A stretch of 64,000 nt of DNA from Candidatus Zhuqueibacterota bacterium. GTDB taxonomy: Bacteria > Zhuqueibacterota > Zhuqueibacteria > Zhuqueibacterales > Zhuqueibacteraceae. Under the pieces are notes generated by a model, which saw only the letters and a list, made by a program, of their open reading frames with translations, did no database searches and was not told where the DNA came from. The stretch is taken from the NCBI GenBank assembly GCA_022616415.1, contig JAKEEU010000105.1:1-64000 (forward strand), in the 5' to 3' direction. Positions 17,706 to 47,215 of the stretch are shown here, piece by piece; within the stretch, counting starts at the first letter, position 1; every line of letters starts with the position of its first letter. The translations under genes were made by a program, and so were the position numbers.

Positions 17706-20700
17706 ATGCGCACTATTTCTGAGCTCTCGCGAGGGCTGCTCGTCAGAGACTCTTCGCCGGCAAAGGATACGCCGGAACAGCGGAGATCAAAAGCCCGCCC
17801 TCGATTTGCCGCACGGGTCACGATTTTCCTTCGATTTTGTTCAACAAAAGCCCGAGCGCTCAGTGCTAATATTCGGCGCGGAGCAATTGCCTTTTTAACG
17901 TGGGCGCGTCACCTTCTCCGTCAGCTCTTGCCCAAGCTGGATAAAGCGGTGGATGTTTTTGGCGATCACAGTTTCGCACTGGCTAAATCAAGCTGGGCGC
18001 TGCTGCGCAAAATCTTTGCCTTCATCAGGCGGTTGCCGCGGCCAGTAGTGATCGCAATTGCCGTTTTGCTTTTTGTCGCAGTCGTGATTTTGGAGCTGCG
18101 TACTTCCTGGTTCGAGGCTCACTACTTGGCCAGCGCCGCGCGCAAGCTGACCTACCAAGTGGAACCAGGGCCAAGCCCAGCGATTCGCTTTCCCAGAACC
18201 GGCCCTTATGACGAGCGCCTCGGTTATACGCGCCTGCCGGATTTCATGGCTAAATTACACGCCAAAGGATACGCGGTTACAGCGCAAGCCCGCTTTGCTC
18301 CGCCGCTGCTCACGCTGATTGATATGGGTTTCTTTCCGATCTATCGCGAAAAAAGCCAGGCGCAGCTTGACATTTTGGGGCAGAATGACGAGCGTCTCTT
18401 TGTCTTTCAGAGTCCGCAGCGCGTCTATCCTGCGTATGATTCCATTCCAGATCTCGTCGTCAAGACTTTGCTCTTTATCGAAGATCAGGAACTGCTGGAT
18501 GACCGCCATCGCTATCGCAATCCGGCCATCGAATGGGATCGTCTGGGCAAGGCGACGTTCGATCAAAGCCGGAAGCTCGTGGATTGGGATTATCAGGCCG
18601 GCGGCGGCAGCACGCTGGCCATCCAGATTGAAAAATTCCGTCATTCGCCGGAGGGACGAACGGTGGGTGCGCGCGAGAAATTTCGCCAAATCGTTTCTGC
18701 TTCCTATCGCGCTTATCTCGATGGCGCGGAGACGCTCCAGGCCCGGCGCCAAATCGTTCTCGATTACATCAACTCGGTACCGTTGGCTGCCGTACCTGGT
18801 TACGGCGAAGTCAATGGCTTGCCGGATGGCTTGTGGGCGTGGTACGGCGTTGATTTTGAGACAGTCAATCGTCTGCTCCAAAACGGCTCGCCCCTCGGCA
18901 ATGAAGAGTGGGCGCGCGCGTACCGCCAGGTGTTGAGCTTGTTTCTCGCGCAACGCCGGCCCGATTACTATCTGCGCGAAAATCCCCAGGCGCTCACCTC
19001 GCTTACCGATGCTTACCTGCATTTATTGGCACAAGCCGGCATCATCTCAGCGCCAATGCGCGAAGCCGTGCTGAAAACCCAATTGGAGTTGCGTCGAACC
19101 GCGCCGCCAATCTCTGAAATTTCTTTCACGCAACACAAAGCCACCAATGCCATTCGCGCTGATCTGCTTAGGCTTTTGGAATTGCCTAGCTTGTACGAGG
19201 TGGATCGTCTGGATTTGACGGTGAAAAGCACGCTGCACCGCCAGACGCAGAAAGAAGTTTCGAGTTTTTTGCAACAACTGCGCGATGCGACACAAGTGCA
19301 CGGGGCGGGGCTGCAAGGTGACCATCTGTTGAATGGACGCGACCCCTCGGCCATCGTTTGCAGCGTGACGCTTTACGAGGCCGGACGGAACGCCAACTAC
19401 CTCCGCGTGCAAGCCGATAACTTTGACCAGCCATTGGATATTAATGAAGGCGTCAAGCTCGAGCTGGGATCGACCGCCAAGCTGCGCACGCTGATTACTT
19501 ATTTGGAGATCGTTGCGGATTTGCACAAAAGCTACGTGAGTTTTTCGCCGGCACAATTGCGCAAAACTCGCGTCCCCGCTGCCGACCATTTGAGCCAATG
19601 GGCGCTGCAGTATCTGGCGACGACGAAGGACAGTAGCTTGTCCGCGATATTGGACGCCGCCATGAATCGCCGCTATGCCGCCAGTCCGGCAGAGGCGTTC
19701 TTCACCGGCGGCGGCCTGCATACTTTTGAAAATTTCAACCGCCAGGACAATGGCCGCGTCCTGCCGGTACGCGAGGCGTTTCACCACTCCGTCAATCTGG
19801 TCTTCATTCGACTCATGCGCGACATCGTCAATTACTACATGTTTCAAGACTCGGCTGCCACCGCGCAGCTTCTGCAAAACGGCCAAGACCCCAATCGCAA
19901 GGCTTACCTGGCGCGGTTCGCGGATTACGAAGGCCGCAAGTTCGTGTCGCGTTTTTATCGCAAATATCGCGGCAAGCACGCGGACGAGGCGATGGAAGTG
20001 CTGCTGCAAAGCGTTTCGCCGACACCGGTTCGCCTGGCTACGATTTATCGCTCCGTTGAGCCGAATGGGGATACTACCGCGTTCGCCGCGTTCATGCAAC
20101 ATCGCCTGCCCAATGTGAAATTTTCGGACGAGCAAATCCGCCAACTCTATGCGAGCTATTCTCCGGCGGCCTACAGTCTGGCCGACCGCGGTGTTTTGGC
20201 GCACGTTCATCCGTTGGAGCTGTGGACGGTGGCCTATCTGCGCCACCATCCACAGGCTGGCCTCACCGAAGTCATCAATGCCGGGGCCGAAGTGCGGCAG
20301 GAGGTGTACGCGTGGCTATTCAATACCCAACAAAAGAATACGCAAGATAATCGCATTCGGACGATGCTTGAGATCGAAGCGTTTGAGGAGATTCACCGCG
20401 CCTGGCAGCGTCTCGGTTATCCGTTTGAAGCGTTGGTGCCGTCCTATGCGACGGCCATTGGCAGCTCGGCGGACCGGCCTGCCGCGCTCGCGGAGCTGAT
20501 GGGCATTCTCCTCAACGATGGCATTCGCCAACCCACGTTGCGAATTCGACAATTGCGTTTCGCCACAGGCACGCCTTACGAGACGATTTTGCAGCCGGAG
20601 CTGAAAGCAGGGGAACAGGTTTTGTTGCCGGAAATTGCGCGGCTGGTGCGGCAGGAATTGATCGGCGTGGTGGAGCAAGGCACGGCGCAGCGGGTGCGGA

Positions 20701-20981
20701 GCGCGTTCCAATTGCCGGATGGCCGCACGCTCGCCGTGGGTGGGAAAACCGGCACTGGCGACAATCGCTATGAGATTTACCGTCCCGAAACCCAATCCAA
20801 ATCCTGGCTGGAAAATCGCACCGCCACGTTTGTTTTCTTTGTCGGCGATCATTTCTTTGGCACGCTGACGGTGTACGTGCCCGGAGCCGAAGCACGCCAT
20901 TTCAGCTTCACCAGCGCGCTGCCGGTGCAGCTCCTCAAAATTCTCGCCCCCAAGCTCATGCCAATGGTGAGCGCCGAATGA
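17706..20981 (+). CDS. atypical bifunctional transglycosylase/transpeptidase PBP
   Basis: A 1091-residue inner-membrane murein synthase, far longer than standard class A PBPs. It has a basic N-terminal cytoplasmic region (1-110) and a TM helix (about 113-133). The GT51-like domain has catalytic Glu in LLFIEDQELLD near 257 and GGGSTLAIQIEK near 300. The transpeptidase shows STAK near 587, SVN near 694 and KTGT near 1013, all intact. Long insertions separate the transpeptidase motifs. The start has only a weak ribosome site, so the N-terminus may be shorter. A PhoB-like box upstream suggests inducible expression, perhaps for envelope repair. Confidence 0.85.
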   Translation: MRTISELSRGLLVRDSSPAKDTPEQRRSKARPRFAARVTIFLRFCSTKARALSANIRRGAIAFLTWARHLLRQLLPKLDKAVDVFGDHSFALAKSSWALLRKIFAFIRRLPRPVVIAIAVLLFVAVVILELRTSWFEAHYLASAARKLTYQVEPGPSPAIRFPRTGPYDERLGYTRLPDFMAKLHAKGYAVTAQARFAPPLLTLIDMGFFPIYREKSQAQLDILGQNDERLFVFQSPQRVYPAYDSIPDLVVKTLLFIEDQELLDDRHRYRNPAIEWDRLGKATFDQSRKLVDWDYQAGGGSTLAIQIEKFRHSPEGRTVGAREKFRQIVSASYRAYLDGAETLQARRQIVLDYINSVPLAAVPGYGEVNGLPDGLWAWYGVDFETVNRLLQNGSPLGNEEWARAYRQVLSLFLAQRRPDYYLRENPQALTSLTDAYLHLLAQAGIISAPMREAVLKTQLELRRTAPPISEISFTQHKATNAIRADLLRLLELPSLYEVDRLDLTVKSTLHRQTQKEVSSFLQQLRDATQVHGAGLQGDHLLNGRDPSAIVCSVTLYEAGRNANYLRVQADNFDQPLDINEGVKLELGSTAKLRTLITYLEIVADLHKSYVSFSPAQLRKTRVPAADHLSQWALQYLATTKDSSLSAILDAAMNRRYAASPAEAFFTGGGLHTFENFNRQDNGRVLPVREAFHHSVNLVFIRLMRDIVNYYMFQDSAATAQLLQNGQDPNRKAYLARFADYEGRKFVSRFYRKYRGKHADEAMEVLLQSVSPTPVRLATIYRSVEPNGDTTAFAAFMQHRLPNVKFSDEQIRQLYASYSPAAYSLADRGVLAHVHPLELWTVAYLRHHPQAGLTEVINAGAEVRQEVYAWLFNTQQKNTQDNRIRTMLEIEAFEEIHRAWQRLGYPFEALVPSYATAIGSSADRPAALAELMGILLNDGIRQPTLRIRQLRFATGTPYETILQPELKAGEQVLLPEIARLVRQELIGVVEQGTAQRVRSAFQLPDGRTLAVGGKTGTGDNRYEIYRPETQSKSWLENRTATFVFFVGDHFFGTLTVYVPGAEARHFSFTSALPVQLLKILAPKLMPMVSAE

Positions 20982-21225: not shown

Positions 21226-21939
21226 ATGCAACTCAGCGTGAGGGATGCAGCGCAGTTGCTGCACGTCTCAGAAAAAACCGTTTACCGCTGGATTCATAAA
21301 GAAGATTTGCCGCATCATCGTGTCAACGAGCAGTATCGCTTCAACCGAGTAGAACTACTGCAGTGGGCCACTGAGAACCGCCGCAAAGTCGCGGCTGATA
21401 TTTTTCAAGAACCGGAAAACGGCAACGGGACTCCCCTGAAACTTTCCGACGCCATTCTCAACGGCGGAATTTTTTACCGCCTCTCCGGCAACGATAAAAA
21501 ATCCGTGCTCGAAGCCGTGGTCGAAACCATGCCGCTGCCGCACGAAGTGGATCGCGAGTTTCTCTTGCACGTCATGTTGGCGCGCGAAGAGCTTGGCTCC
21601 ACCGGCATCGGTGACGGCATTGCGATTCCGCACGCGCGCAATCCCATCGTTTTGCACGTCAAAAAGCCGAGCGTCTCGCTCTGCTTTTTGGAGAAACCCA
21701 TCGACTTTCAGGCGTTGGACGGCAAGCCGGTGTCGATTTTGTTTACCCTGCTCAGCCCCAGCGTGAGGGTGCACCTCAATCTGCTGGCGAAATTATCTTA
21801 CGCCTTGCGTGATGAAAAACTGTTGGCATTGCTCAAAGCGCCTGGCAGCTCCGAGGAAATTCTCGCCGAAATTCGCCGTATCGAAGACGCTCTGCCGCAG
21901 CCGCAAGCGACCCGCGCGGAAGGAGCGCTGTCCGAATGA
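21226..21939 (+). CDS. HTH-EIIA(fructose/PtsN-type) fusion regulator
   Basis: A 237-residue fusion. Residues 1-55 are an excisionase/MerR-like helix-turn-helix (VRDAAQLLHVSEKTVYRWI, then HHRVNEQYRFNRVELLQW). Residues 65-225 are a PTS EIIA domain of the PtsN/FruA type with the phospho-His in GIAIPHARNP near 135. No sugar transporter follows; instead the gene overlaps the first Ehr membrane subunit by four bases. It may sense the PTS(Ntr) phosphorylation state and regulate, or bind, the membrane complex. Confidence 0.85.
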   Translation: MQLSVRDAAQLLHVSEKTVYRWIHKEDLPHHRVNEQYRFNRVELLQWATENRRKVAADIFQEPENGNGTPLKLSDAILNGGIFYRLSGNDKKSVLEAVVETMPLPHEVDREFLLHVMLAREELGSTGIGDGIAIPHARNPIVLHVKKPSVSLCFLEKPIDFQALDGKPVSILFTLLSPSVRVHLNLLAKLSYALRDEKLLALLKAPGSSEEILAEIRRIEDALPQPQATRAEGALSE

Positions 21940-23927
21940 CAATTTTTCTCGGTGCGCTCGCCATCATGGTGGTTGGCGGCGTCATGGCGTTATTTTTCCA
22001 ACGCCAACCTCGCAGCGCTTTGACGATTGGTTTTGGCAGCGCCGCACTCGGATGTATCGCCGGCTTGTTTCCGGCAATACAAACGCTCTTCGACGGCGAG
22101 GTGCTCATGTTTCGCCAGCCGTGGCGCGTGCCTTACGGCGAGCTTTTCTTGCAAGTGGACGCGCTGTCGGCGTTTTTCCTGCTCGCCATTTTCGGCCTCG
22201 CGTTCTTTGCTGCAATATACGGCCACGAATATTTGCAAGCATATCAGGAACGCAAACGCCTCGGCGCCGCGCTCTTCTTTTTTAACCTGCTCATTGCGGC
22301 CATGGCAATCGTGGTGACGGCGCGCAACGGCATGCTTTTTCTCGTGGCGTGGGAAGTCATGTCCCTGGCCTCATATTTTTTGGTGAGCTTCGAGCACGAG
22401 CGTCCCGAAGTGCGCGCCGCCGGCTTTACCTACTTGGTCGCCACCCACCTCGGCACCGCATTTCTCTTGGCCATGTTCGTTTTGGCGGCACGCGAGACTG
22501 GCTCGATGAGCTTCGATCTATTCCACCAGCTTGCCGCGCTCTCGCCCGCCACTGCCGGCGCATTGTTTGTTTTGGCCATCATCGGCTTTGGCACCAAAGC
22601 CGGTTTCGTGCCGTTCCATGTTTGGCTGCCGGAAGCGCATCCCGCCGCACCCAGCCACGTTTCCGCGCTGATGTCCGGCGTCATGATCAAAACCGGCATC
22701 TACGGCATTCTGCGGATGCTGACTTTTCTCGGCCCGCCGCCGGCGTGGTGGGGCGTCGTGCTTTTGGTGATCGGCGCGGTCTCCGGCATTCTGGGCGTCA
22801 TCTTTGCACTGGCGCAGCACGATCTCAAGCGCCTGTTGGCGTATCACAGCGTGGAGAATATCGGCATTATCGCCCTCGGCATGGGGGTGGGCTTGCTCGG
22901 GCAAACAACGGAGCAGCCGCTTGTGAGTGTTGCCGGTTACGCGGGCGCGTTGTTTCACGTGCTCAATCACGCCATGTTCAAAGGCTTGCTCTTTTTCGGC
23001 GCGGGTTCGGTCTTGCACGCGACTTCGACGCGCGACATGGATCATCTCGGCGGCTTGTTGAAGCACATGCCACGCACGGGTATCACCTTTTTGATCGGCG
23101 CGGTGGCGATTAGTGGCTTGCCGCCGCTCAACGGCTTCGCCAGCGAATGGCTGATTTACAACGGCATGTTGCGTGGCGGCTTGCTCATCAATGGAACCAA
23201 AGATTTGCTTTTGGTTTTCTCCGCCGTCGCTCTCGCTTTCATCGGCGGTCTGGCGCTGGCCTGTTTCACCAAAGCCTTTGGCATCGTCTTTCTCGGCGAG
23301 CCGCGCAGCGGCCACGCGCAGCACGCACACGAAGCCGGCTGGCGCATGCGTCTTGCGATGACCGCGCTCGCGGCCGGCTGCGTGATTTTCGGTCTCCTCC
23401 CGATGTCAGCCATGTTTTTGGTTTTGCCGGCCGTGCGCTTGCTGGCGTCATTTCCCGAAGATGTGCTAACACCGTTGTTGCAGCCTTTGTGGTACATCAG
23501 CCTCGGCGCGGCAGGCATAGTCGCGGGCATTCTCTTTTTCGTTTGGCTGCGTCGCGCCATCCTCCGCCGCCGTGCCGTCTCCACTACCGTCACGTGGGGT
23601 TGTGGCTATGCTCTTCCCACCGCGCGCATGCAATACACCTCATCTTCGTTTGCGCAGCCGGTGGTACAATTTCTCACCACGGTTTTGCGCCCACAGGAAA
23701 AAATCGAACGGCTGGCGGGATATTTTCCCCCGCCGCGTGGAGCCACTTTTGCGACGGCAGCAGCCGATTTCGCGAAGCACCTTTTTTATCAACCCGTATT
23801 TGTCAAGATCAAAAATCTCACCCATCGTCTGCACTGGCTGCAGCACGGGCGCGTTCATCTTTATCTGCTTTATATTTTTCTCACGTTGATCGCGCTCTTG
23901 CTGTGGAAAGGAGGCGTGCTAAGATGA
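21936..23927 (+). CDS. Ehr complex antiporter-like subunit (HyfB/HycC type)
   Basis: A 663-residue, roughly 16-TM proton/sodium-conducting subunit of the NuoL/MrpA superfamily. Core motifs include SLASYFLVSFEHE near 145, FGTKAGFVPFHVWLPEAHPAAPSHVSALMSG split across about 211-241, and HVLNHAMFKGLLFFGAGS near 344. The key Lys and Glu residues of the translocation path are present. The long C-terminal part matches HyfB rather than NuoL. It overlaps the regulator before it and the next subunit after it (ATGA), so translation is coupled. It would couple redox or conformational change to ion movement. Confidence 0.88.
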   Translation: MTIFLGALAIMVVGGVMALFFQRQPRSALTIGFGSAALGCIAGLFPAIQTLFDGEVLMFRQPWRVPYGELFLQVDALSAFFLLAIFGLAFFAAIYGHEYLQAYQERKRLGAALFFFNLLIAAMAIVVTARNGMLFLVAWEVMSLASYFLVSFEHERPEVRAAGFTYLVATHLGTAFLLAMFVLAARETGSMSFDLFHQLAALSPATAGALFVLAIIGFGTKAGFVPFHVWLPEAHPAAPSHVSALMSGVMIKTGIYGILRMLTFLGPPPAWWGVVLLVIGAVSGILGVIFALAQHDLKRLLAYHSVENIGIIALGMGVGLLGQTTEQPLVSVAGYAGALFHVLNHAMFKGLLFFGAGSVLHATSTRDMDHLGGLLKHMPRTGITFLIGAVAISGLPPLNGFASEWLIYNGMLRGGLLINGTKDLLLVFSAVALAFIGGLALACFTKAFGIVFLGEPRSGHAQHAHEAGWRMRLAMTALAAGCVIFGLLPMSAMFLVLPAVRLLASFPEDVLTPLLQPLWYISLGAAGIVAGILFFVWLRRAILRRRAVSTTVTWGCGYALPTARMQYTSSSFAQPVVQFLTTVLRPQEKIERLAGYFPPPRGATFATAAADFAKHLFYQPVFVKIKNLTHRLHWLQHGRVHLYLLYIFLTLIALLLWKGGVLR

Positions 23928-24841
23928 ACACCCGCATCGTGGCCTGGTTCTTCGTTCTGCTCGCGCTGCTTGTGGCGCCTTTGCTGTTGGGAATCATCAA
24001 TAAGACCAAAGCGCTGTTCGCCGGACGCCGCGGCGCGCCGTTGTTGCAACCGTATTATGACGTAATCAAGCTCCTGGGCAAGGGCGCGGTTTACAGCCAG
24101 AGCACCACGTTTCTTTTCCGCGCCGGCCCCATCATCTCGCTTGTCTCTATTATCATTGCCCTGCTGCTGCTCCCGCTTGGCGGAAAAACTGCCGCGCTGG
24201 CATTTACCGGCGATCTGATTCTCTTTGCGTACGTGCTCGGCTTGGTACGCTTTTTTACCGTAACGGCAGCATTGGATACGGCTTCGAGCTTCGAAGGCAT
24301 GGGCGCCAGCCGCGAGGTGTTCTTTTCCGCGTTCGCCGAGCCGGCGTTGTTTTGCGGTCTCATCGTTTTGGCCAAAAGCACCGGCGCGTTATCGCTGAGC
24401 GAAATGCTCGGCCCGGCTCTCGCGCCGGTTTGGAAAGTGAACGCCGCGCCGCTGGTTCTGATCGTGCTCAGCTTGTTGGCGATTTTACTGGCGGAAAACT
24501 CGCGCATTCCCGTGGACGATCCCAACACGCACCTCGAGCTCACCATGATTCACGAAGTGATGGTGCTCGACCACAGCGGCCCGGATTTCGCTTTCGTGCA
24601 ATACGGCGCCGCGCTGAAATTGCTGCTCTCCGAAGCCCTGCTCGTGCGCATACTCATGCCGGTTGCCAGCGACAATTTGTATGTGGCCACGGGAGTTTTT
24701 CTCGCGGGCCTGGCGGGAATCTCCATTCTCGTCGGTGTCGTCGAATCCGTCATGGCGAGATTGCGCTTGCTCGTCGTGTCGCGATTTTTAGTGGCGGCAA
24801 CGATTATCGCGGCGTTTGCGATTGCGTTAGTTGTAAAATGA
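23924..24841 (+). CDS. Ehr complex NuoH-like subunit (HyfC/HycD type)
   Basis: A 305-residue, eight-TM subunit that links the soluble arm to the ion pump. LFAGRRGAPLLQPYYDVIKLL near 28-48 and the acidic loop ENSRIPVDDPNTHLELTMIH near 190-209 are hallmarks of the NuoH/HycD family. It starts at an ATG preceded by AGGAGG and overlapping the previous stop. It probably sits at the quinone-cavity-like interface, although no quinone site can be assigned. Confidence 0.88.
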   Translation: MNTRIVAWFFVLLALLVAPLLLGIINKTKALFAGRRGAPLLQPYYDVIKLLGKGAVYSQSTTFLFRAGPIISLVSIIIALLLLPLGGKTAALAFTGDLILFAYVLGLVRFFTVTAALDTASSFEGMGASREVFFSAFAEPALFCGLIVLAKSTGALSLSEMLGPALAPVWKVNAAPLVLIVLSLLAILLAENSRIPVDDPNTHLELTMIHEVMVLDHSGPDFAFVQYGAALKLLLSEALLVRILMPVASDNLYVATGVFLAGLAGISILVGVVESVMARLRLLVVSRFLVAATIIAAFAIALVVK

Positions 24842-24894
24842 CGGGCTTTCTTATACAACCAAATTCAGAAAAAATTCTAAAAATTTTATGCCAC

Positions 24895-24946
24895 CAACTG
24901 ATAGATGAAGACCAACGGATAATCCCGCCACAGCGGGACCAACGGT
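24895..24946. repeat. CAACGGAT word repeat, partial copy
   Basis: CAACTGAT and CCAACGGAT words, then a CCCGC/GCGGG mini-hairpin and CCAACGGTT. It is related to the full palindromes at 25038 and 61298. Together with that second copy and a small GC hairpin near 24973 it fills the 334-base gap between two operon genes. Confidence 0.55.
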
Positions 24947-25037
24947 TTAATCAATTTACCGTAATGATCCAGCGAAGCCCACGGCCGTAGGCTTTGCTTT
25001 AAATCTTACAGGCGCAGCCGACGAAAAATAATTTTCC

Positions 25038-25119
25038 CAACTGATAGAAACAACGCAACGGATGAAAAAATTATATCCGTTGCGTTGTTTCAATCCGTTG
25101 GCCAGTTTTATCCGTTGGG
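25038..25119. repeat. CAACGGAT word palindrome, copy 2
   Basis: The left arm has CAACTGAT then CAACGGAT 18 bases later; the right arm has ATCCGTTG three times. The element is closely similar to one at 61298 between ahcY and metK. It lies inside the Ehr operon, upstream of the HyfE-like gene. Confidence 0.75.
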
Positions 25120-25175
25120 TAATTTCTTTAAAACCCAAAACCGCCCCTGAAGGGACTACTACAAACGAAATAAAC

Positions 25176-25817
25176 ATGCAAGCGCTCAACACCATTCTCA
25201 TCGGCATCATTCTGATCGACTTTTTTCTGTTGGCCACCGGCCGCCTCTCCGCCTTCATCAACGCGACGGCGTTGCAGGGGGCAGTGCTCGGCGTCGCGAT
25301 TCTCCTAATTGCCGGCACCTTGTCTTCGTGGCATACCGTGTTGTTGGCCGGCGGCATGGTGGGATTGAAAGGCTTTATTATTCCGCGATTGCTCTTTCGC
25401 GCCATTCGTCAGGCGAAAATCCGCCGCGAGGTCGAGCCGCTCATCGGTTTCACGGCCTCGCTGCTCATCGGCATTCTCATCGTGTTCTTCGCCTTCTGGC
25501 TGGCGGCGCGATTGCCTTTGCCCATGCCGACGCCGGCGCCATTGCTCGTTCCGGCCGCTTTCACGACGTTGATGATTGGCCTGCTGATCATCGTCAGCCG
25601 CACCAAAGCCTTGACGCAAGTGGTCGGCTATCTCGTCATGGAAAACGGCATCTTCCTTTTTGGACTCGCCCTCGCCGAAGGCATGCCCCTTCTCGTCGAG
25701 CTTGGCATCTTGCTGGACGTGTTCGTCGCCGTGTTCGTGATGGGCATCGCCATCTATCACATCAATCACGCCTTCGATGACATCGATGCGGAGAAGATGA
25801 CGATGTTGCGGGGGTGA
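25176..25817 (+). CDS. Ehr complex HyfE-like membrane subunit
   Basis: A 213-residue, six- to seven-TM protein of HyfE/NuoK-like type, matching the usual HyfE length. ALTQVVGYLVMENGIFLFG near 145-163 carries the buried Glu typical of NuoK-like subunits. ATG at 25176 is chosen; upstream codons in this frame derive from the repeat element. It would form an additional ion half-channel between the HyfB- and HyfF-like pumps. Confidence 0.85.
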   Translation: MQALNTILIGIILIDFFLLATGRLSAFINATALQGAVLGVAILLIAGTLSSWHTVLLAGGMVGLKGFIIPRLLFRAIRQAKIRREVEPLIGFTASLLIGILIVFFAFWLAARLPLPMPTPAPLLVPAAFTTLMIGLLIIVSRTKALTQVVGYLVMENGIFLFGLALAEGMPLLVELGILLDVFVAVFVMGIAIYHINHAFDDIDAEKMTMLRG

Positions 25818-25824
25818 AAAAACT

Positions 25825-25935
25825 TTGGAGTGATGGATTGATGGAGTGATGGATTGATGGAGTGATGGATTACTGGAGTATTGGAGACGCATCAATCCAT
25901 TAATCCAACGATCCAAAAATCCAGTAATCCAACCA
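25825..25935. repeat. octamer-phased palindrome (TGGAKTNN family, copy 4)
   Basis: The cleanest copy: eight consecutive octamers (TGGAGTGA, TGGATTGA, repeated, then TGGAGTGA, TGGATTAC, TGGAGTAT, TGGAGACG) facing five complementary AATCCANN octamers. It lies between the HyfE- and HyfF-like genes, 12 bases before the next ATG. Confidence 0.85.
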
Positions 25936-25947
25936 TTTTGTGAATTT

Positions 25948-27387
25948 ATGTTGCTAATTGCATTGGTGCTCACGCCGATGGTTGCGGCGGCAATGGCTTT
26001 TTTGCTGCGCTCACGGTCGTTGGGCCGGATCTTGTTGATTGGAACCGCTGTTGTGCACGCCGCGCTCGTTGCCGCGTGCTGGTGGCAAAATCCCGCGCCG
26101 GATTTCAGCGGCTGGCTGATGCTTGATGCGTTGGGGCTGGTGTTCCTGAGCATCACCAGCGCGCTCTTTTTGTTGGTGGCGATTTACACGCTCGGCTATT
26201 TGCGCGAAGAGACGCACGGTAATCAAGGCGTCTTCATTGCCTCGTTGCTCTTTTTTCTCGCCGCGATGACACTGGTCACCATCAGCCATCACATCGGCCT
26301 GCTGTGGGTCGCCATCGAGGCCACCACTTTGGCCAGCGCGCCGCTGATTTATTTTCATCGCTCACCCCGCTCTCTTGAAGCGATGTGGAAATACCTGCTC
26401 ATCTGCTCGGTCGGCATCGGCCTGGCCTTGCTCGGCACGCTGTTTCTCGGCGTCGCCGCGACTGATGCCAGCCATGAAAGCATACCGATCGTCCTGAATA
26501 GTCTGGTGGAGCAGGCGAGCCGGTTACATTTAAATTGGCTCAAGCTCGCCTTCATTTTTCTGCTCATCGGCTACGGCACAAAAATGGGGCTGGTGCCATT
26601 GCACACCTGGCTGCCGGACGCCCACAGTGAAGCGCCTTCACCGGCCTCGGCGTTGCTCTCCGGCGCGCTGCTCAACTGCGCGTTTCTCGGCGTGTTGCGC
26701 TTCTATCAAATTTGCATGGCTGCCGGCATTGCCGAGTTTGTCCAACAATTGTTGGTGTTGTTCGGATTGTTGTCGCTCGGCGTCGCTGCGGCTTTCATCG
26801 TCGGCCAGAGCGATTTCAAGCGCATGCTGGCGTATTCGAGCGTCGAGCACATCGGCATTCTTTCGCTCGGCGCCGGCCTTGGTGGCGCCGGTGTTTATGG
26901 CGCCATGCTGCACGCCGTCAATCATTCCGTCACCAAAGGCCTGCTGTTTTTGGTGGCGGGTAATCTTCTGCTTTTTTATCGCAGCAAAATGATCAACGAT
27001 GTGCAGGGCGTGCTCCGGCATTTGCCGATCACCGGCATTTTGCTGCTGGCGGGATTTCTCGCCATCACCGGCTCGCCGCCCTTTGGCCTGTTCCTGAGCG
27101 AACTCACGATTTTAAAATCCGCGTTCGATGGCGGCCACACATTGGCCGCGGCGCTTTATCTGCTCTTTCTCGCCGTCGCGTTTATCGGCATGGCCGCCGC
27201 GGTGATCAAAATGGCCCTCGGTGAGGCCCGCGCTCCTGAAACCTCGGCAAAACCGCGCGAGTCGTTCTTGCTGATTTTTTCACCGATAACGCTCGCGGGA
27301 ATCGTGCTGCTGTTGGGCCTCTATATTCCGGCGCCGCTCGAGGCCCTTCTCCGCCGCGCCGCCGAAATTTTGGGAGGTGGCTTGTGA
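25948..27387 (+). CDS. Ehr complex second antiporter-like subunit (HyfF type)
   Basis: A 479-residue, about 14-TM subunit of the NuoN/HyfF type. Motifs include WVAIEATTLASAPLIYF near 119-135, YGTKMGLVPLHTWLPDAHSE near 210-229 and MLHAVNHSVTKGLLFLVAGN near 318-337. Start MLLIALVLTP follows the repeat. It overlaps the next gene by four bases (GTGA). With HyfB and HyfE types it makes three ion-channel modules. Confidence 0.88.
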   Translation: MLLIALVLTPMVAAAMAFLLRSRSLGRILLIGTAVVHAALVAACWWQNPAPDFSGWLMLDALGLVFLSITSALFLLVAIYTLGYLREETHGNQGVFIASLLFFLAAMTLVTISHHIGLLWVAIEATTLASAPLIYFHRSPRSLEAMWKYLLICSVGIGLALLGTLFLGVAATDASHESIPIVLNSLVEQASRLHLNWLKLAFIFLLIGYGTKMGLVPLHTWLPDAHSEAPSPASALLSGALLNCAFLGVLRFYQICMAAGIAEFVQQLLVLFGLLSLGVAAAFIVGQSDFKRMLAYSSVEHIGILSLGAGLGGAGVYGAMLHAVNHSVTKGLLFLVAGNLLLFYRSKMINDVQGVLRHLPITGILLLAGFLAITGSPPFGLFLSELTILKSAFDGGHTLAAALYLLFLAVAFIGMAAAVIKMALGEARAPETSAKPRESFLLIFSPITLAGIVLLLGLYIPAPLEALLRRAAEILGGGL

Positions 27388-28904
27388 ACGAAAAGCATTA
27401 TGCCCAAATTCGCAACGGCCAGGCCATTAGCGTCGCGCAAATGCCGGCTTTGCCGATTGAAATTTTTCGCCAAGCCATTTTGGCCGCCGTGCAAGAAGGT
27501 TGCCGGCTGGCCGCCTATTTTGGCGCCGCGCCCTCGTCAAAGCAGGTGAAAATTTTTGCTGTACTGGCGAACGACATCAATAACGAGCTTTTCGTGCTGT
27601 CGACGCCTGTTGGCGAATCTTATCCCGCACTAACGCCGGATTGCCCGCAGGCACATCTCTTCGAGCGCGAGCTGGCGGAGAATTTCGGCGTGCGACCGGA
27701 AGGGCATCCGTGGCTGAAGCCGGTGCGCTATCACCAATCCTATCGCAGCGGCCATACCTTATGGCCCGAAGTTGAAAACAAAGTCATCCCAGGCGACTAT
27801 CCTTTTTTCCAGCTCGAGGGCGAAGAAGTCCACGAAGTGGCCGTCGGCCCGATTCACGCGGGGATTATCGAGCCTGGACATTTTCGTTTTCAATGCCACG
27901 GCGAAAAAGTTTTTCATTTGGAAATTCAACTCGGCTATCAACACCGCGGCGTCGAGCCGGCGATGAGAGGCGGGCCGAGTAAGCGGTCTCTCGTGCTCGC
28001 GGAATCCATCGCCGGTGACACGGTGATCGGCCATGCTTCGGCGTATTGCCAGGCGGTGGAAGCGTTGGCCGCCTGCCACATTTCACCCCGCGCTCAAGCG
28101 CTGCGGGCGATAGCGTTGGAGTTGGAGCGCACCGCCAACCACGTCGGCGATCTCGGCGCGCTTGCCAATGATGTCGGCTTTTTGCCCGGCGCTTCCTATT
28201 TCGGACGCGCGCGGGGTGACATACTCAACTTGTCCGGCGTGCTGTGCGGCAATCGTTATGGCCGCGGTATGTTGCGGCCCGGCGGCGTGCATTTTGATTT
28301 GCCGCCGGAAATAGAAAACGATTTTTTGCGCCGATTGGAGCGCGCTGACAAGCAGCTCACCGAGATAGCCGTGATGCTTTTTGAAAAGCCGTCAGTGCTC
28401 TCTCGTTTTGAAAATACCGGCCCAGTGAACGCCAATGATGCCAAAGCTCTTGGCTTGGTCGGTCCGGCAGCGCGCGCCTGCGGGTTGGAAATTGACGTAC
28501 GCCACGATCATCCGCATGGCATTTATCGCGTCGCGCATATTCCAGTGGCGCGCGGCGAAACCGGCGACGTGCATGCCCGCGCGTTGGTGCGTTGGCTCGA
28601 AGTGCAGCGCTCGCTCGAGTTTCTCCAATCGCAAATTCGCGATCTGCCGGAAGGCCAATTGCACAAAGAATGCGGAACGATGCGGCCCGAGCATTTCGTC
28701 GTGAGCATGGTCGAAGGCTGGCGCGGGGAAATCGTGCACATGGCACAAACCGATGCCGCCGGCAAATTTTCACATTACAAAATTATCGATCCCTCGTTTC
28801 ACAATTGGACCGGCCTGGCGATGGCCTTGCGCAATCAACAGATTTCGGATTTTCCATTGTGCAATAAGAGTTTCAATTTGTCGTATGCAGGACATGATCT
28901 GTAG
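27384..28904 (+). CDS. Ehr complex fused 30-kDa/49-kDa subunit lacking NiFe cysteines
   Basis: A 506-residue fusion of a NuoC-like domain (about 1-165) and a NuoD/HycE-like large subunit (about 170-506), starting at GTG after GGAGG. In NiFe hydrogenases the N-terminal motif is CGxC and the C-terminal one DPCxxC. Here they read ESIAGDTVIGH (about 207-217) and DPSFHNW (about 469-475), so all four metal ligands are absent and the protein cannot carry a NiFe centre. This matches energy-converting hydrogenase-related (Ehr) complexes, whose catalytic reaction is unknown. Confidence 0.88.
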   Translation: MNEKHYAQIRNGQAISVAQMPALPIEIFRQAILAAVQEGCRLAAYFGAAPSSKQVKIFAVLANDINNELFVLSTPVGESYPALTPDCPQAHLFERELAENFGVRPEGHPWLKPVRYHQSYRSGHTLWPEVENKVIPGDYPFFQLEGEEVHEVAVGPIHAGIIEPGHFRFQCHGEKVFHLEIQLGYQHRGVEPAMRGGPSKRSLVLAESIAGDTVIGHASAYCQAVEALAACHISPRAQALRAIALELERTANHVGDLGALANDVGFLPGASYFGRARGDILNLSGVLCGNRYGRGMLRPGGVHFDLPPEIENDFLRRLERADKQLTEIAVMLFEKPSVLSRFENTGPVNANDAKALGLVGPAARACGLEIDVRHDHPHGIYRVAHIPVARGETGDVHARALVRWLEVQRSLEFLQSQIRDLPEGQLHKECGTMRPEHFVVSMVEGWRGEIVHMAQTDAAGKFSHYKIIDPSFHNWTGLAMALRNQQISDFPLCNKSFNLSYAGHDL

Positions 28905-28906
28905 GA

Positions 28907-28954
28907 AGTTTGCCAGTTGGCCGGTTTGCCAGTTGGCCTGTTGATCAGTCGAGT
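28907..28954. repeat. octamer-phased array, RGTTKGCC type
   Basis: Six octamers in register: AGTTTGCC, AGTTGGCC, GGTTTGCC, AGTTGGCC, TGTTGATC, AGTCGAGT. It sits between the last two Ehr genes and, unlike the others, has no clear opposing arm. Confidence 0.7.
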
Positions 28955-28993
28955 GTTTTTAAAATTTTACGTTTTTCGCCTTACGTCTTACAC

Positions 28994-29752
28994 ATGCTAA
29001 AAGTTCTTCAAACCCGAATCCACCAACCCTCGATAAAACGTTTCCCTCAGAACGATGTCGAATGGCCCGAGCGCTTTCGGGGGCGTCCGACTATTGATGC
29101 CACCAAATGCCCGGACGGCTGCCGTGCGTGCGCCGATGCTTGCCCGACGGATGCGATTATTTTTAATGGCAAAGCAACGATCGATCTCGGTCGCTGCTTG
29201 TTCTGCCAGGAATGTGTGGCAGCCTGTCCCGAAGGCGCGATTCAATATACCAAAGATTATCGTCTTTCCACTCGTGCGCGCCAGGATTTGATTTTGCACG
29301 ACAACGAAATGAAATTGGCGCAAGCGCTCGACGAAAAAATGCGCCAACTCTTCGGCCGCTCGCTGAAGCTGCGCTCAGTTACCGCCGGAAGCTGCAATGG
29401 CTGCGACCTCGAGCTGCAAGCGCTGAATAATGTCGTTTTTGATATGCTGCGCTTCGGCATCGACATCGTTGCATCGCCGCGCCACGCCGACGGCCTGATC
29501 GTCACCGGCCCGGTGAGCCATAACATGGCGTTTGCGTTGCGCGAGGCTTACGCGGCAGTTCCGGAGCCGAAAATCGTCATCGCTGTTGGCGCCTGCGCTC
29601 TCAGCGGCGGCCCATTCCGCGATTTGCCGGAAGTCCACAACGGCGTTGATGCCTTTCTGCCGGTTGATCTTTACATCGCCGGCTGCCCCCCGCATCCGAT
29701 AACGATATTGGATGGTTTGTTGCGGCTATTGGGGAAGCTGGCAAAAAGCTGA
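28994..29752 (+). CDS. Ehr complex ferredoxin-NuoB-like fusion subunit
   Basis: A 252-residue electron-transfer subunit fusing what are normally HycF and HycG. The N-terminal ferredoxin domain has two 4Fe-4S motifs, CPDGCRACADACP (about 41-53) and CLFCQECVAACP (about 71-82). The C-terminal NuoB-like domain keeps all four N2-cluster ligands: CNGCDLE near 137, VGACALSGG near 200 and AGCPPHP near 232. Electron wiring is therefore intact even though the NiFe site is gone. ATG at 28994 avoids the repeat-encoded upstream codons. Confidence 0.88.
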   Translation: MLKVLQTRIHQPSIKRFPQNDVEWPERFRGRPTIDATKCPDGCRACADACPTDAIIFNGKATIDLGRCLFCQECVAACPEGAIQYTKDYRLSTRARQDLILHDNEMKLAQALDEKMRQLFGRSLKLRSVTAGSCNGCDLELQALNNVVFDMLRFGIDIVASPRHADGLIVTGPVSHNMAFALREAYAAVPEPKIVIAVGACALSGGPFRDLPEVHNGVDAFLPVDLYIAGCPPHPITILDGLLRLLGKLAKS

Positions 29753-30010: not shown

Positions 30011-30946
30011 TCAAGCTTGAGGCATGATGCGGGTGTCGGTCTTCGATTCGTGGGGTAGAAGAGGAATCTCGATAATAGGCTCTTTTTTAACAATATCGTG
30101 AAGCTGATAACGCTCCATCAGTTGACGCCAATTGGCTTCGCTTAGCTTGCCGCCATTGATAAGGATACGACAGTAGTGCCATAAACTGCGATAATAGCTG
30201 ACAAACAAATCAGCCGCGGCTTTCGAGTTCATATAAATGCGATGATCGTTGAAATGGTCTTCACCGAGGTTGAGTAGAAAGATGGTTCGTCGGTCGATGA
30301 TTTGCACGCTGACGGGGGAAATAAAGCGTTCATCATCATATTCGATGTAGGCCAAGCTCATTTGAAAGCGTCCGTGGAACTCCTGCACCATGTCGTGTAT
30401 CCACTTCGCAGTTGCTGGCGTGGCCCGGACAATGCGTGTGATCTTGAGGTCGGGTCGCTGCTCAATGATGTTTTGCAATTGTTCGAGATATTGAATTTTT
30501 TCAGCGATTGAGGTGTGGTTAGGCGCATGCGCAGAAAGGTAGGTGATCAGCAGCTCATTGTCGGCTTTGTTCATGCTGTCTTTCAAGCGCACATAAAATT
30601 CGCGCTCGTCAATGACTTCAACTCGCTCCTGATTCCTGATCAAGTTGATCAGAATATTTGAATATTGCTCGAAAGAGTGGTGCCGTTGTTCGGTAAAGTT
30701 CACAAACGCCTCATGACGCTGCTCGGTGAAATTCAGATAGATGCTGATCGCGAACAGATTCAACGAGGCAATGACGCCGATGATCGTGGTGGAATACTCG
30801 GCAATGAAGCGCTTGTCGGCATCCGGATAGACGTCGAGCCAGATAGAAATGACCAGGGTAAGAATCGAAAAAAGCTGAAAAGTATAAACCAAATACTTGG
30901 TGCTACCCATGGTCTTGGGAGCTATAGGGGAAAGGTTGAGAATCAT
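30011..30946 (-). CDS. two-TM protein with PLD-like cytoplasmic domain, unknown function
   Basis: A 311-residue protein that I do not recognise. Two TM helices (about 18-38 and 50-72) are followed by a coiled region with a repeated FTEQRH motif. A C-terminal domain of about 190 residues contains LLITYLSAHAP, LKITRIVRATPATAKWIHDM and RRTIFLLNLGE, a strand pattern like the half-domain of phospholipase D-like proteins but without HKD motifs. It overlaps the upstream GNAT-like gene by 44 bases, and AGGAGG precedes its ATG. They form an operon of unknown role. Confidence 0.65.
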   Translation of the reverse strand: MILNLSPIAPKTMGSTKYLVYTFQLFSILTLVISIWLDVYPDADKRFIAEYSTTIIGVIASLNLFAISIYLNFTEQRHEAFVNFTEQRHHSFEQYSNILINLIRNQERVEVIDEREFYVRLKDSMNKADNELLITYLSAHAPNHTSIAEKIQYLEQLQNIIEQRPDLKITRIVRATPATAKWIHDMVQEFHGRFQMSLAYIEYDDERFISPVSVQIIDRRTIFLLNLGEDHFNDHRIYMNSKAAADLFVSYYRSLWHYCRILINGGKLSEANWRQLMERYQLHDIVKKEPIIEIPLLPHESKTDTRIMPQA

Positions 30947-32132
30947 GGTGGACCTCCTGAAGCATGATGCTATAGAGTTCCATATTGATTCCCGGATGAT
31001 AGGGCTCGTGCAACAAGCCCTCGCGCGCGAAGTGGTGGGCGAGAAGAACGTCCTTGAGCTGCGTATCCAGTTCGGGAACTATGGCATACACTTTCCGGCG
31101 GCCGAGTTGGCGCAGCCGGGCAACAGCGTCTTTTATAATCTTGTCGCCTTCGTCCAGGTGGCCGCTGACGATGAACGGTCCGAGAAAAACCGCGCCACCC
31201 CGTTTGGGCGTCGCGACGATGACGGCAAGTATTTCCTCCCTTCGCTTACGTAGATAAGCAAAGCGCCGGCGTTCGAGATAAAAGCGATCGTCGATCAGAG
31301 TGGTATCAGGGCAGGTCGCGTTAATGATCGCGTCGGCATAGTCAGAATCAAAACCGCCATAGCAATGGTTCTCGTGTGCCGGATAAATCGTTTCCAGCAA
31401 ATAATACTTGAACTGCTCGGCAACTAAAAAATCGGATTTGTCAAGGACGCAAGTAGATTCCGATGAGGAACCGTGTCGACGCTCATAAGCCGCATTCACC
31501 TCAGCAATGGCTTCGCTTGTTTTGGCAGCGTAATTGACGCCAGTGTTGAGCGGCTTATAAAGGATAACCTCATCGCGATTAGCATCGTAATGCTTTAATA
31601 ACTTAAACTCAACATTATATTTGTAAGTTCCCTTGGTGAATACTCTTAAAGCTTCCCCGCCGTCACAAACCGTTGAATAGGCTCGCCGGTAGCCGCCGTG
31701 ATGAGCATAGAATTGTTCGATTTTGGCCTTCATCCGGCTTGTTAATCCCTGGTGCCTGAAGCGCTCTTCCAATACGGTCGGGCCGAATTTAATGGCGCCT
31801 CCCCGCTTTTCTGTAACCACCGTGTATCCGTGTGCGGGATAAATGCTGTTCTTTTCCAGATGCCGCAAGACCCAAATCATTTTACGCATGCTGCCGCATC
31901 CGTAATAGTCTTTTTTTGCCACATGGGCGTTAACGATGTAATCAAGATAAGAACGCTGGGTTTCAGCGTAGTGCACGCTTACATTATTGTAAGCGAGCTC
32001 TTTGAATTTCTTGAGATCGTTTTCAGTAAGTTGGTTGGTGACAATCCAATCGTCGTTAGCGAACAGGTAGACTGGTTCCGCTGCCAGATTGATTTTCGCA
32101 GGTGCAAGTGCCAAGCTGTCTTTCGTTTCCAT
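30903..32132 (-). CDS. tandem GNAT-like protein, unknown function
   Basis: A 409-residue protein with two acetyltransferase-like halves. The first half has GPTVLEERFRHQGLTSRMKA, a GNAT motif-A-like segment, then FTKGTYKYNVEF. The second half repeats the theme with GGAVFLGPFIVSGHLDEGDKII and LLAHHFAREGLL. The ATG at 32132 follows GGGGAG at six bases; an ATG 66 bases upstream lacks a site. No donor or acceptor can be predicted. Translational overlap with the downstream membrane gene suggests a two-protein module. Confidence 0.6.
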   Translation of the reverse strand: METKDSLALAPAKINLAAEPVYLFANDDWIVTNQLTENDLKKFKELAYNNVSVHYAETQRSYLDYIVNAHVAKKDYYGCGSMRKMIWVLRHLEKNSIYPAHGYTVVTEKRGGAIKFGPTVLEERFRHQGLTSRMKAKIEQFYAHHGGYRRAYSTVCDGGEALRVFTKGTYKYNVEFKLLKHYDANRDEVILYKPLNTGVNYAAKTSEAIAEVNAAYERRHGSSSESTCVLDKSDFLVAEQFKYYLLETIYPAHENHCYGGFDSDYADAIINATCPDTTLIDDRFYLERRRFAYLRKRREEILAVIVATPKRGGAVFLGPFIVSGHLDEGDKIIKDAVARLRQLGRRKVYAIVPELDTQLKDVLLAHHFAREGLLHEPYHPGINMELYSIMLQEVHHDSQPFPYSSQDHG

Positions 32133-32458
32133 GTTCGGCTCCCCTTGGGGTTTGCTCACAGTTTCAGATGCTGAGTCAGTCACTGCTAATGAATTCATGT
32201 TGCAGTATCCATTCCGTACATTGCAGGCCGATCATTTGCGTATCGACGCTACAAAATTTTACAAAAAAAATTGTTTGGTGCTTCGCTGGTGCGAAGGATT
32301 TGAAACACTCGATTGGGGTGTATCGGTTGCGGAGGAATGAAGGTGAGATCAGACTGCATGGCAAGATGGTCTGAAATACCACCGGTTTAGTATCCGGTTC
32401 GCGGGAATTCATACAGCTACCTTTTGCTTTGTCACACTCTTGAAAACAATCAAGAATG
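32133..32458. other. intergenic region, no gene seen
   Basis: About 326 bases upstream of the GNAT-like operon and downstream of the ASCH gene. I see no convincing promoter pair, hairpin or ORF with a ribosome site here. Confidence 0.35.
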
Positions 32459-46257: not shown

Positions 46258-47215
46258 TTACCTCGTCAACACCATCTTCCGCGTCTGCTTCAAATCCCCC
46301 GCGGTCAAGGTGTAAAAATAGATGCCGGAGGGTAAGCTTGAAGTGTTAAAATTCACCACATGCTCTCCGGCAGGTTTGGAACCTTTCACCAGCATCGTGA
46401 CTTTCTCGCCCAACATGTTGTAAACTTCCAGCGTAACGTTGGCGGCTTTGCTCAATGTAAAAGTAATCGTCGTGCCGGAGTTGGAGAGAGATGCCCGTAG
46501 GGGATTGGGATAGCTCTGGCGCAAGTGAAATCGCTCCGGCGCGCGGTCGGAAGGTGATTTGACGACGGTTGGCACAAAATCATTGCGGATAATGTATAAT
46601 CCATTTTCCTCGTCTGCCACATAAGCCAGGTTTCCACTCACCGCCACGCGACCGGCACTACCATCGGTATCGAAAAAGCCGACTTCTTTTGGAGTGGCTG
46701 GATTGCTGACATCGATGATCCGCAGGCCATTCGGCCCATCAGCCACATAAGCCAGGTTTTCAATTACTTTCACCTCCGCAGCACTTCCCGGTGTATCGAA
46801 AAAGCCGACTTCTTTGGGGCTAGTCGGATTGCTCACATCAATGATGTGCAAGCCGTCAAAATAACTCACCAAATAGGCGAAATTGCCGCGCACCTCCACA
46901 TCTAAGACAGAAATGAAAAGGGTAGTATTGAAAGAACCGACTTGACGGGGGTTGGCGGGATTGCTGACATCGATGATGCGCAGACTATCTCCTCCGGCCC
47001 CCGCATAAGCATAATTGCCGCTGACGGCCACGGCACCAATAAAGCTGCCCGCACCGAAAGTGCTGACTTCGGTGGGGCTGGCAGGATTGCTCACATCAAT
47101 GATTCGTAATCCATAATATCCAGAGCTGCGTCCGCCAGAAGGACTCTTCCCAATTCAGTCGGTTTGCTGGGATCGGAAATATCGGCAATCATGAAATAAG
47201 GGCCGATAAAATTCA
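46258..47215 (-). pseudogene. secreted LVIVD-repeat protein with type IX-like sorting domain (5' truncated, frameshifted)
   Basis: The main frame (46258-47094 and extending upstream without a start) encodes four LVIVD beta-propeller repeats of the form GLRIIDVSNPA-PKEVGFFDT. A C-terminal domain of about 85 residues (LRQSYPNP ... VTLEVYNMLGEKV ... LPSGIYFYTLTAG ... KMVLTR) is characteristic of FCB-group secretion/sorting tails. Further upstream, YFMIADISDPSKPTELG continues the repeat in another frame, so at least one frameshift is present. No signal peptide remains; the upstream junction runs directly into the TIR-domain gene. Confidence 0.65.

Follow-up and report, generated by a model that had tools for sequence, protein, structure and literature searches.

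Ech-hydrogenase-related (Ehr) complexes, known from Geobacter and Methylacidiphilum, combine six subunit types and have a HycE-like large subunit without the ligands of the NiFe site. Passages of three papers state that their function is unknown (PMC10284858, PMC12342949, PMC4378227). Geobacter Ehr proteins are made and vary with growth condition (PMC7894505, PMC8691401), with higher abundance in syntrophic coculture (PMC8691401), and the Methylacidiphilum complex has been viewed in terms of pH homeostasis (PMC6688271). The subject of this analysis is an Ehr operon of a Candidatus Zhuqueibacterota bacterium (assembly GCA_022616415.1, contig JAKEEU010000105.1), which lies at 21226-29752 on the plus strand of a stretch of 64,000 nucleotides, here called the window. 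It has the same six subunit types, gene names and type of large subunit, but is led by a gene for a helix-turn-helix (HTH) protein with an EIIA domain of the phosphotransferase system (PTS), which the Geobacter-type loci L032 and L063 lack, and it has a single ehrA where Geobacter is described as having ehrA-1 and ehrA-2.

The E. coli formate hydrogenlyase (Hyc) and hydrogenase-4 (Hyf) share homologous subunits, an iron-sulfur (Fe-S) relay and ion-path residues with the window's Ehr, which differs from them in having neither NiFe cysteines nor a cleaved tail, and no counterparts of HyfA, HyfD, HycI, HyfJ or HyfR in its operon. Complex I (NuoB, CD, H, K and L/M) has the same large-subunit fold and types of membrane-arm subunit, whereas the Ehr operon encodes no NADH module, its proximal cluster motif is CxxC rather than the tandem CC of NuoB, and the His and Tyr of the quinone site are lost. 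The MBX/MBS-type complex of Pyrococcus is, like Ehr, hydrogenase-derived with an altered NiFe site; the Ehr large subunit, EhrL, matches it weakly in sequence (6u8y_L, 2.5e-16).

Taken with its relatives, the window's complex is best read as an electron-driven ion pump under PTS control, with a remodelled pocket that would use a substrate other than H2. We infer the pumping, the electron donor and the acceptor, and give this reading an even chance of being right. What goes beyond the initial annotation of the locus is that the pocket region appears conserved and that the HTH-EIIA gene is the sole recurrent partner of Ehr operons. Neither the linkage of this gene to Ehr nor a residue map of the vacated site was found in the open-licence literature searched, which leaves their unpublished status unproven.

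The Ehr operon and its family

Open reading frames and family scans resolve 21226-29752 into seven genes, the HTH-EIIA regulator (REG) followed by ehrA-B-C-D-L-S (Table 1). The set and order of the ehr genes match the published ehrABCDLS names (PMC6688271, PMC7894505), and the complex belongs to the published Ehr family. The initial annotation had read the whole span as a six-gene, Ehr-type complex with no assigned reaction. All six Hyf/Hyc-like genes were indeed found on the plus strand, and the family assignment is upheld by gene order and content and by papers whose passages give no function. The complex itself stands, although 21226-21939 encodes the regulator, a seventh gene that had gone uncounted.

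One scan for relatives yielded 78 loci (79 with the window). At least 17 named phyla are represented, and the operon keeps its gene order. A quick tree of large subunits was built from 42 rows, 30 of them from the 71-row alignment described below and 12 others, with long branches flagged. All 30 Ehr rows fall in one clade (99, flagged), which two divergent Ehr rows join (99, flagged), and this clade is separate from hydrogenases (85) and NuoD (100, flagged). Ehr occurs in 13 of 60 genomes of the window's relatives, 11 with canonical and 2 with divergent complexes. The divergent clade (L102/L113 and L103/L114) comes from two genomes that belong to the same family as the window's, shows 37-40% identity, and lacks FQCHGE and a full-length REG; in L113, ehrS is placed before ehrA. 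The window's genome has two other NuoD-type loci, which are read as complex I.

Loss of the NiFe site

The closest solved structure to EhrL is E. coli HycE (7z0s_E), by sequence and by fold. The AlphaFold model has a mean pLDDT of 92.7, with loop 157-162 as the sole stretch of at least three residues below pLDDT 50, and it aligns with 7z0s_E over 490 residues (VIA-align Z 44.2, rmsd 2.5). A local alignment of EhrL with HycE, HyfG, NuoCD and two NuoD-type proteins of the same genome pairs the N-terminal NiFe motif RVCGICG of HycE with SIAGDTV and the C-terminal motif DPCYSC with NLSYAG. Length filtering kept 73 sequences, and all of these but L055 and L063 make up the 71 rows of the family alignment, A1. 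Cys stands at position 500 or 503 in none of its 69 rows readable there, at 210 in L070 only, and at 213 in L071 only. G211 and D212, within the former N-terminal motif, are invariant (71/71). Because Cys is missing throughout at 500 and 503 and occurs in a single row each at 210 and 213, the alignments with HycE and the family confirm that the four NiFe cysteines were lost and not displaced, a verdict qualified only by the Cys that most rows have at 502, beside an old ligand. This agrees with the initial annotation, whose Ala/Thr replacement holds (A210 and T213); its Ser/Asn-Trp replacement does not, since the alignment gives S500 and G503. The flanks of the relatives' operons show no recurrent, separate gene for a NiFe large subunit.

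HycE carries a C-terminal extension that is removed on maturation. EhrL ends three residues past S500-Y-A-G503, without a cleavable tail, and an extension of the HycE type was not seen in A1, where 0 of 71 rows run beyond residue 506. HypD was not found in the window's genome, which is 99.99% complete with 8% contamination. Set against the group 4 [NiFe]-hydrogenases, EhrL thus has neither of the two NiFe-binding CxxC motifs nor the tail, and the maturation gene for HypD is missing from its genome. HypD was considered as a marker of Ehr and rejected: missing in the window's genome, it is present in 27 and absent from 23 of the 50 other Ehr genomes covered, out of 78 loci. Ehr therefore neither requires nor rules out hydrogenases.

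Conservation around the vacated pocket

Mean column identity of EhrL is 0.52 overall and 0.35 in the N-terminal domain. The stretches that rank highest are the strand at residues 149-176 and the last 20 residues, both of which border the former NiFe pocket (Table 1). Several residues of EhrL are Ehr-specific: W446 (69 of 71 rows; Pro in HycE), C493 (69 of 70 readable rows) and its neighbours N494 and K495. C171 is present in all 71 rows of A1, and C502, beside an old ligand, in 61 of the 69 readable ones. The divergent clade (L102 and L103) retains W446 and C493-N-K. These patterns are suggestive of a former active-site region under conservation rather than decay. EhrL is under purifying selection, with dN/dS values of 0.09-0.25 for the 14 closest pairs.

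Geobacter Ehr has been called already nonfunctional (PMC13194489), and a hydrogenase relic would fit the lost NiFe ligands and the absence of HypD from the window's genome. Pocket conservation and low dN/dS are evidence against this view as worded in the passage concerned: the relic is already contradicted by the selection data and by the mean column identity of 0.93-0.94 at the pocket border, and with the window's seven genes intact and their order conserved in relatives it is scarcely credible. It is likewise very improbable that Ehr remains an H2 enzyme by virtue of some other metal site. The Ehr-specific cysteines C171, C493 and C502 would speak for such a site, yet the divergent clade has Val in place of C171, the window has Ala at position 502, the cleavable tail is missing, and HypD is lacking from the window's genome and from nearly half of the other Ehr genomes covered.

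The Fe-S relay and the membrane arm

EhrS retains the four cysteines of the proximal cluster (C162, C165, C229 and C259, numbered from 28910) in 65-66 of 66-67 rows, as had been claimed for the iron-sulfur ligands of the small fused subunit. The motif is of the hydrogenase type, CxxC...C...C, and the listed cysteines of both ferredoxin-type clusters are retained as well.

Sequence comparison finds the ion-path residues of Hyf mostly retained in EhrA, EhrB, EhrC and EhrD. The channel residues include E140, K221, H228, K252, K349 and E404 of EhrA and E124, K148, K212, H219 and K330 of EhrD. EhrB keeps an acidic path as in HyfC (D122, E135, E143, E195, E209, E215 and E278), and EhrC keeps the charged residues K103, E194, E213 and D219 (numbered from 25062). 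Such charged residues are established as pumping ions in the relatives of these subunits.

An EIIA-type regulator linked to Ehr

Linkage of REG was read in 59 of the 79 loci, the other 20 not being assessable. REG lies immediately 5' of ehrA in 30 of the 59 and nearby in 2 more. Adjacency spans 11 named phyla, in addition to the window and two unplaced loci. The phospho-acceptor His136 is retained, with His in 31 of 32 rows of that column. Among the 60 relatives of the window, 9 of the 11 genomes with canonical Ehr carry full-length REG, vs 2 of the 49 others (Fisher p 2e-7, with kinship ignored); the cut-off of E <= 1e-39 was chosen after the matches had been viewed. Weaker matches that extend into the HTH part occur in G068, G088 and G099. 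The two canonical genomes without full-length REG, G102 and G104, also give only a partial EhrL match. For eight of the nine that have it, adjacency to ehrA was read directly (the window; L019, identified with the G105 assembly by matching hits; L115-L119; and L156), and in the ninth, G083, the positions fit adjacency.

In those two other genomes, where the search found no Ehr, the REG paralogue stands first in an operon with genes for two ClC chloride channels (L154 7002-11546 and L155 6146-10677). The L154 channels are Voltage_CLC proteins with CBS domains in Pfam, one with TrkA_C in addition, and those of L155 were assigned by sequence resemblance.

A PTS regulator would be expected to have an EIIA phospho-His in a genome that encodes HPr and enzyme I (EI), and REG fits this pattern at the level of sequence: the window's genome has HPr, EI and four EIIA domains. 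The sole EI and HPr genes found there lie just beyond the window, at G000:C325 65289-65985, about 36 kb downstream of the Ehr operon on the same contig. EI was found in 43 of the 50 other Ehr genomes, in 42 of them above the cut-off. Like PtsN (EIIA-Ntr), REG has an EIIA_2 domain with a phospho-acceptor His and is linked to a predicted ion-transport operon, and unlike PtsN it is fused to an N-terminal HTH_17 domain, predicted to bind DNA. PtsN of E. coli binds and inhibits the K+/H+ antiporter YcgO (PMC11808508). Given the REG linkage, the ClC paralogues, the PTS genes and the PtsN precedent, it is reasonable to propose that REG exerts EIIA-type control of ion transport, acting on DNA, on the complex or on both.

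A proposed mechanism and its alternatives

In the proposed pump, low-potential electrons, most likely from ferredoxin, would enter EhrS at its 2x[4Fe-4S] part and move on to the hydrogenase-type proximal cluster. At the remodelled EhrL pocket they would reach a small substrate other than H2. The pocket reaction would be relayed through the NuoH-like EhrB to EhrC, EhrD and EhrA, and the relay would drive translocation of H+ (or Na+), possibly reversibly. REG would couple the expression or activity of Ehr to PTS phosphorylation, in the way that PtsN acts on ion transporters. A more specific version, possible but doubtful as a whole, makes Ehr a hydrogenase turned PTS-controlled ion-homeostasis pump with a new, conserved substrate site formed by W446-R447, C493-N-K, S500 and D505, joined in most members by C171; REG would then adjust the amount or activity of the pump to the phosphoenolpyruvate:pyruvate balance, and its regulator family would serve ClC channels elsewhere.

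Several observations weigh against the pump. REG is absent from 27 of the 59 assessable loci, the two Geobacter-type loci among them. Similarity clustering and Pfam scans, applied to the pair of genes that flanks Ehr operons on either side and covering 89 of 111 proteins in the upstream set and 103 of 126 in the downstream set after short or doubtful frames had been dropped by eye, found no redox enzyme that recurs. It is therefore the Fe-S domain, and that alone, that points to ferredoxin. A ferredoxin link through POR genes was considered and rejected: 71 of the 73 genomes covered, out of 110, have POR with or without Ehr, and ferredoxin oxidoreductases therefore do not discriminate. Lastly, the 10-mers that flank the ligands show no clear excess of conservation over random 10-mer pairs (fraction 0.093 by permutation), a result left short of clear-cut because the first motif block (205-219) has a mean column identity of just 0.60.

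The same flanks bear on a link to formate, in which Ehr, supplied with electrons by a formate dehydrogenase whose genes lie elsewhere, would hand them on to quinone or another carrier while pumping. Ehr is homologous to formate hydrogenlyase, Ehr subunits of Geobacter sulfurreducens are more abundant on formate (PMC7894505), and a unit of formate dehydrogenase and Ehr has been proposed for the Riflemargulisbacteria and Saganbacteria (PMC6349859). Molybdopterin enzymes, however, are outside the 25 commonest Pfam families of the flanking proteins, a ranking in which single occurrences are invisible. EhrL also aligns I162 and G211 with the His and Tyr of NuoD that we take to be quinone-site residues. 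A formate link is unlikely on this evidence.

An electron-independent ion exchanger, in which the complex would act as an antiporter while its Fe-S arm served as a structural element or redox sensor, would account for flanks without a recurrent redox partner and for a sole recurrent partner of the EIIA type with paralogues at the head of ClC operons. Ion transporters also appear among the 103 downstream proteins, with 6 MscS, 2 CitMHS and 2 Na/H exchanger matches. Retention of the Fe-S cysteines and pocket-border residues across at least 17 phyla argues against it, as this would carry a selective cost if no electrons flowed, and the exchanger, too, is unlikely. The MscS-type matches presumably correspond to genes of 824-884 aa directly 3' of ehrS in L034, L036, L042, L046, L049 and L053, which come from Riflebacteria or an Erysipelotrichia-labelled bin.

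Gene layout and neighbouring genes

There is a 4-nt overlap between REG and ehrA and another between ehrD and ehrL, and sequences resembling ribosome sites precede ehrA and ehrB, with AAGGAGG 5' of the ehrB ATG at 23924. For ehrC, ATG 25176 is favoured over 25062; the NF008556 match covers residues 39-251 of the longer reading. For ehrS, ATG 28994 is favoured, with TTG 28910 also open.

Table 1. Genes of the Ehr operon and EhrL segments discussed in the text (window coordinates)
Feature	Position	Strand	Evidence
REG: HTH_17 fused to PTS EIIA_2 (PtsN-like)	21226..21939	+	PF12728 E 7e-16, PF00359 E 7.5e-28
ehrA: HyfB/NuoL-like antiporter-type subunit, 663 aa	21936..23927	+	NCBIfam NF005086 E 2.1e-196
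ehrB: HyfC/HycD/NuoH-like subunit, links arm with membrane	23924..24841	+	Pfam NADHdh E 6.6e-29
ehrC: HyfE-like (NuoK-like) subunit	about 25176..25817	+	NF008556 (hydrogenase 4 membrane subunit) E 2.1e-26
ehrD: HyfF/NuoM-like antiporter-type subunit	25948..27387	+	NF005044 E 4.6e-118
ehrL: fused 30 kDa and large subunit, HycE/NuoCD-like, without NiFe ligands	27384..28904	+	phmmer 7z0s_E (HycE) 2.8e-45
EhrL residues 149-176, VHEVAVGPIHAGIIEPGHFRFQCHGEKV, among the most conserved stretches; hydrogenase glutamate E163 retained	27828..27911	+	column identity 0.93
EhrL A210-G-D-T213, former N-terminal NiFe motif (HycE CGIC)	28011..28022	+	alignment
EhrL residues 487-506, ISDFPLCNKSFNLSYAGHDL, equally conserved; Ehr-specific C493-N-K	28842..28901	+	column identity 0.94
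EhrL S500-Y-A-G503, former C-terminal NiFe motif (HycE CYSC)	28881..28892	+	alignment
ehrS: fused HycF-like 2x[4Fe-4S] and HycG/NuoB-like small subunit	about 28994..29752	+	Pfam Fer4, Oxidored_q6 E 4.7e-31

Just 5' of the operon, 17706-20981 encodes a penicillin-binding-protein-1A-like product of 1091 aa with modest matches to transglycosylase and transpeptidase domains. On its 3' side, 30011-32198 on the minus strand encodes two proteins, 311 and 431 aa long, that match no Pfam family at 1e-5. Farther away, 46258-47094 on the minus strand encodes a repeat protein whose C-terminal tail resembles what we take to be the pattern of a type IX secretion sorting tail, a hint of a bacterium from the FCB group.

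Candidate selenocysteine hydrogenases in related genomes

Seven loci from genomes of the window's class (L106-L112) encode HycE-like group-4 large subunits with one in-frame TGA, at residue 247-299 of the read frame. Within the N-terminal NiFe motif the TGA takes exactly the place of the second Cys (RICGI-TGA-G), while DPCFSC and the C-terminal tail are intact. A match of this type occurs in 14 of the 60 genomes, 7 of which were read, and SelA is present in 14 of 14; nine genomes matched EhrL solely through such one-TGA hydrogenase-type proteins. Although a hairpin 3' of the TGA, GTGCACAGTACGG...TACTGTCA, is conserved, it has a weak folding energy (z of -0.6 to -1.5 vs mononucleotide shuffles). 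The case for selenocysteine (Sec) therefore comes from the conserved TGA position and SelA, and these proteins are candidate group-4 [NiFeSe] hydrogenases. In L120, L121 and L122 the Sec-type hydrogenase operon includes HyfB-, HyfD-, HyfE- or HyfF-like subunits. That of L120 also holds, by Pfam, a molybdopterin oxidoreductase, a FAD/NAD-binding subunit, a HycI-like protease, and an iron-only-hydrogenase-like protein fused to a histidine kinase. Passages of PMC11291895 report Sec in VhuU and not in group-4 large subunits, those of PMC5317091 describe the Caldithrix genome as having no group-4 hydrogenase, and no title matching selenocysteine group-4 hydrogenases was found in the literature searched.

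Implications

Ehr is widespread and has no assigned reaction. The conserved residues at the vacated site of EhrL are positions to mutate, and the linkage of REG offers a handle on when Ehr complexes are used.

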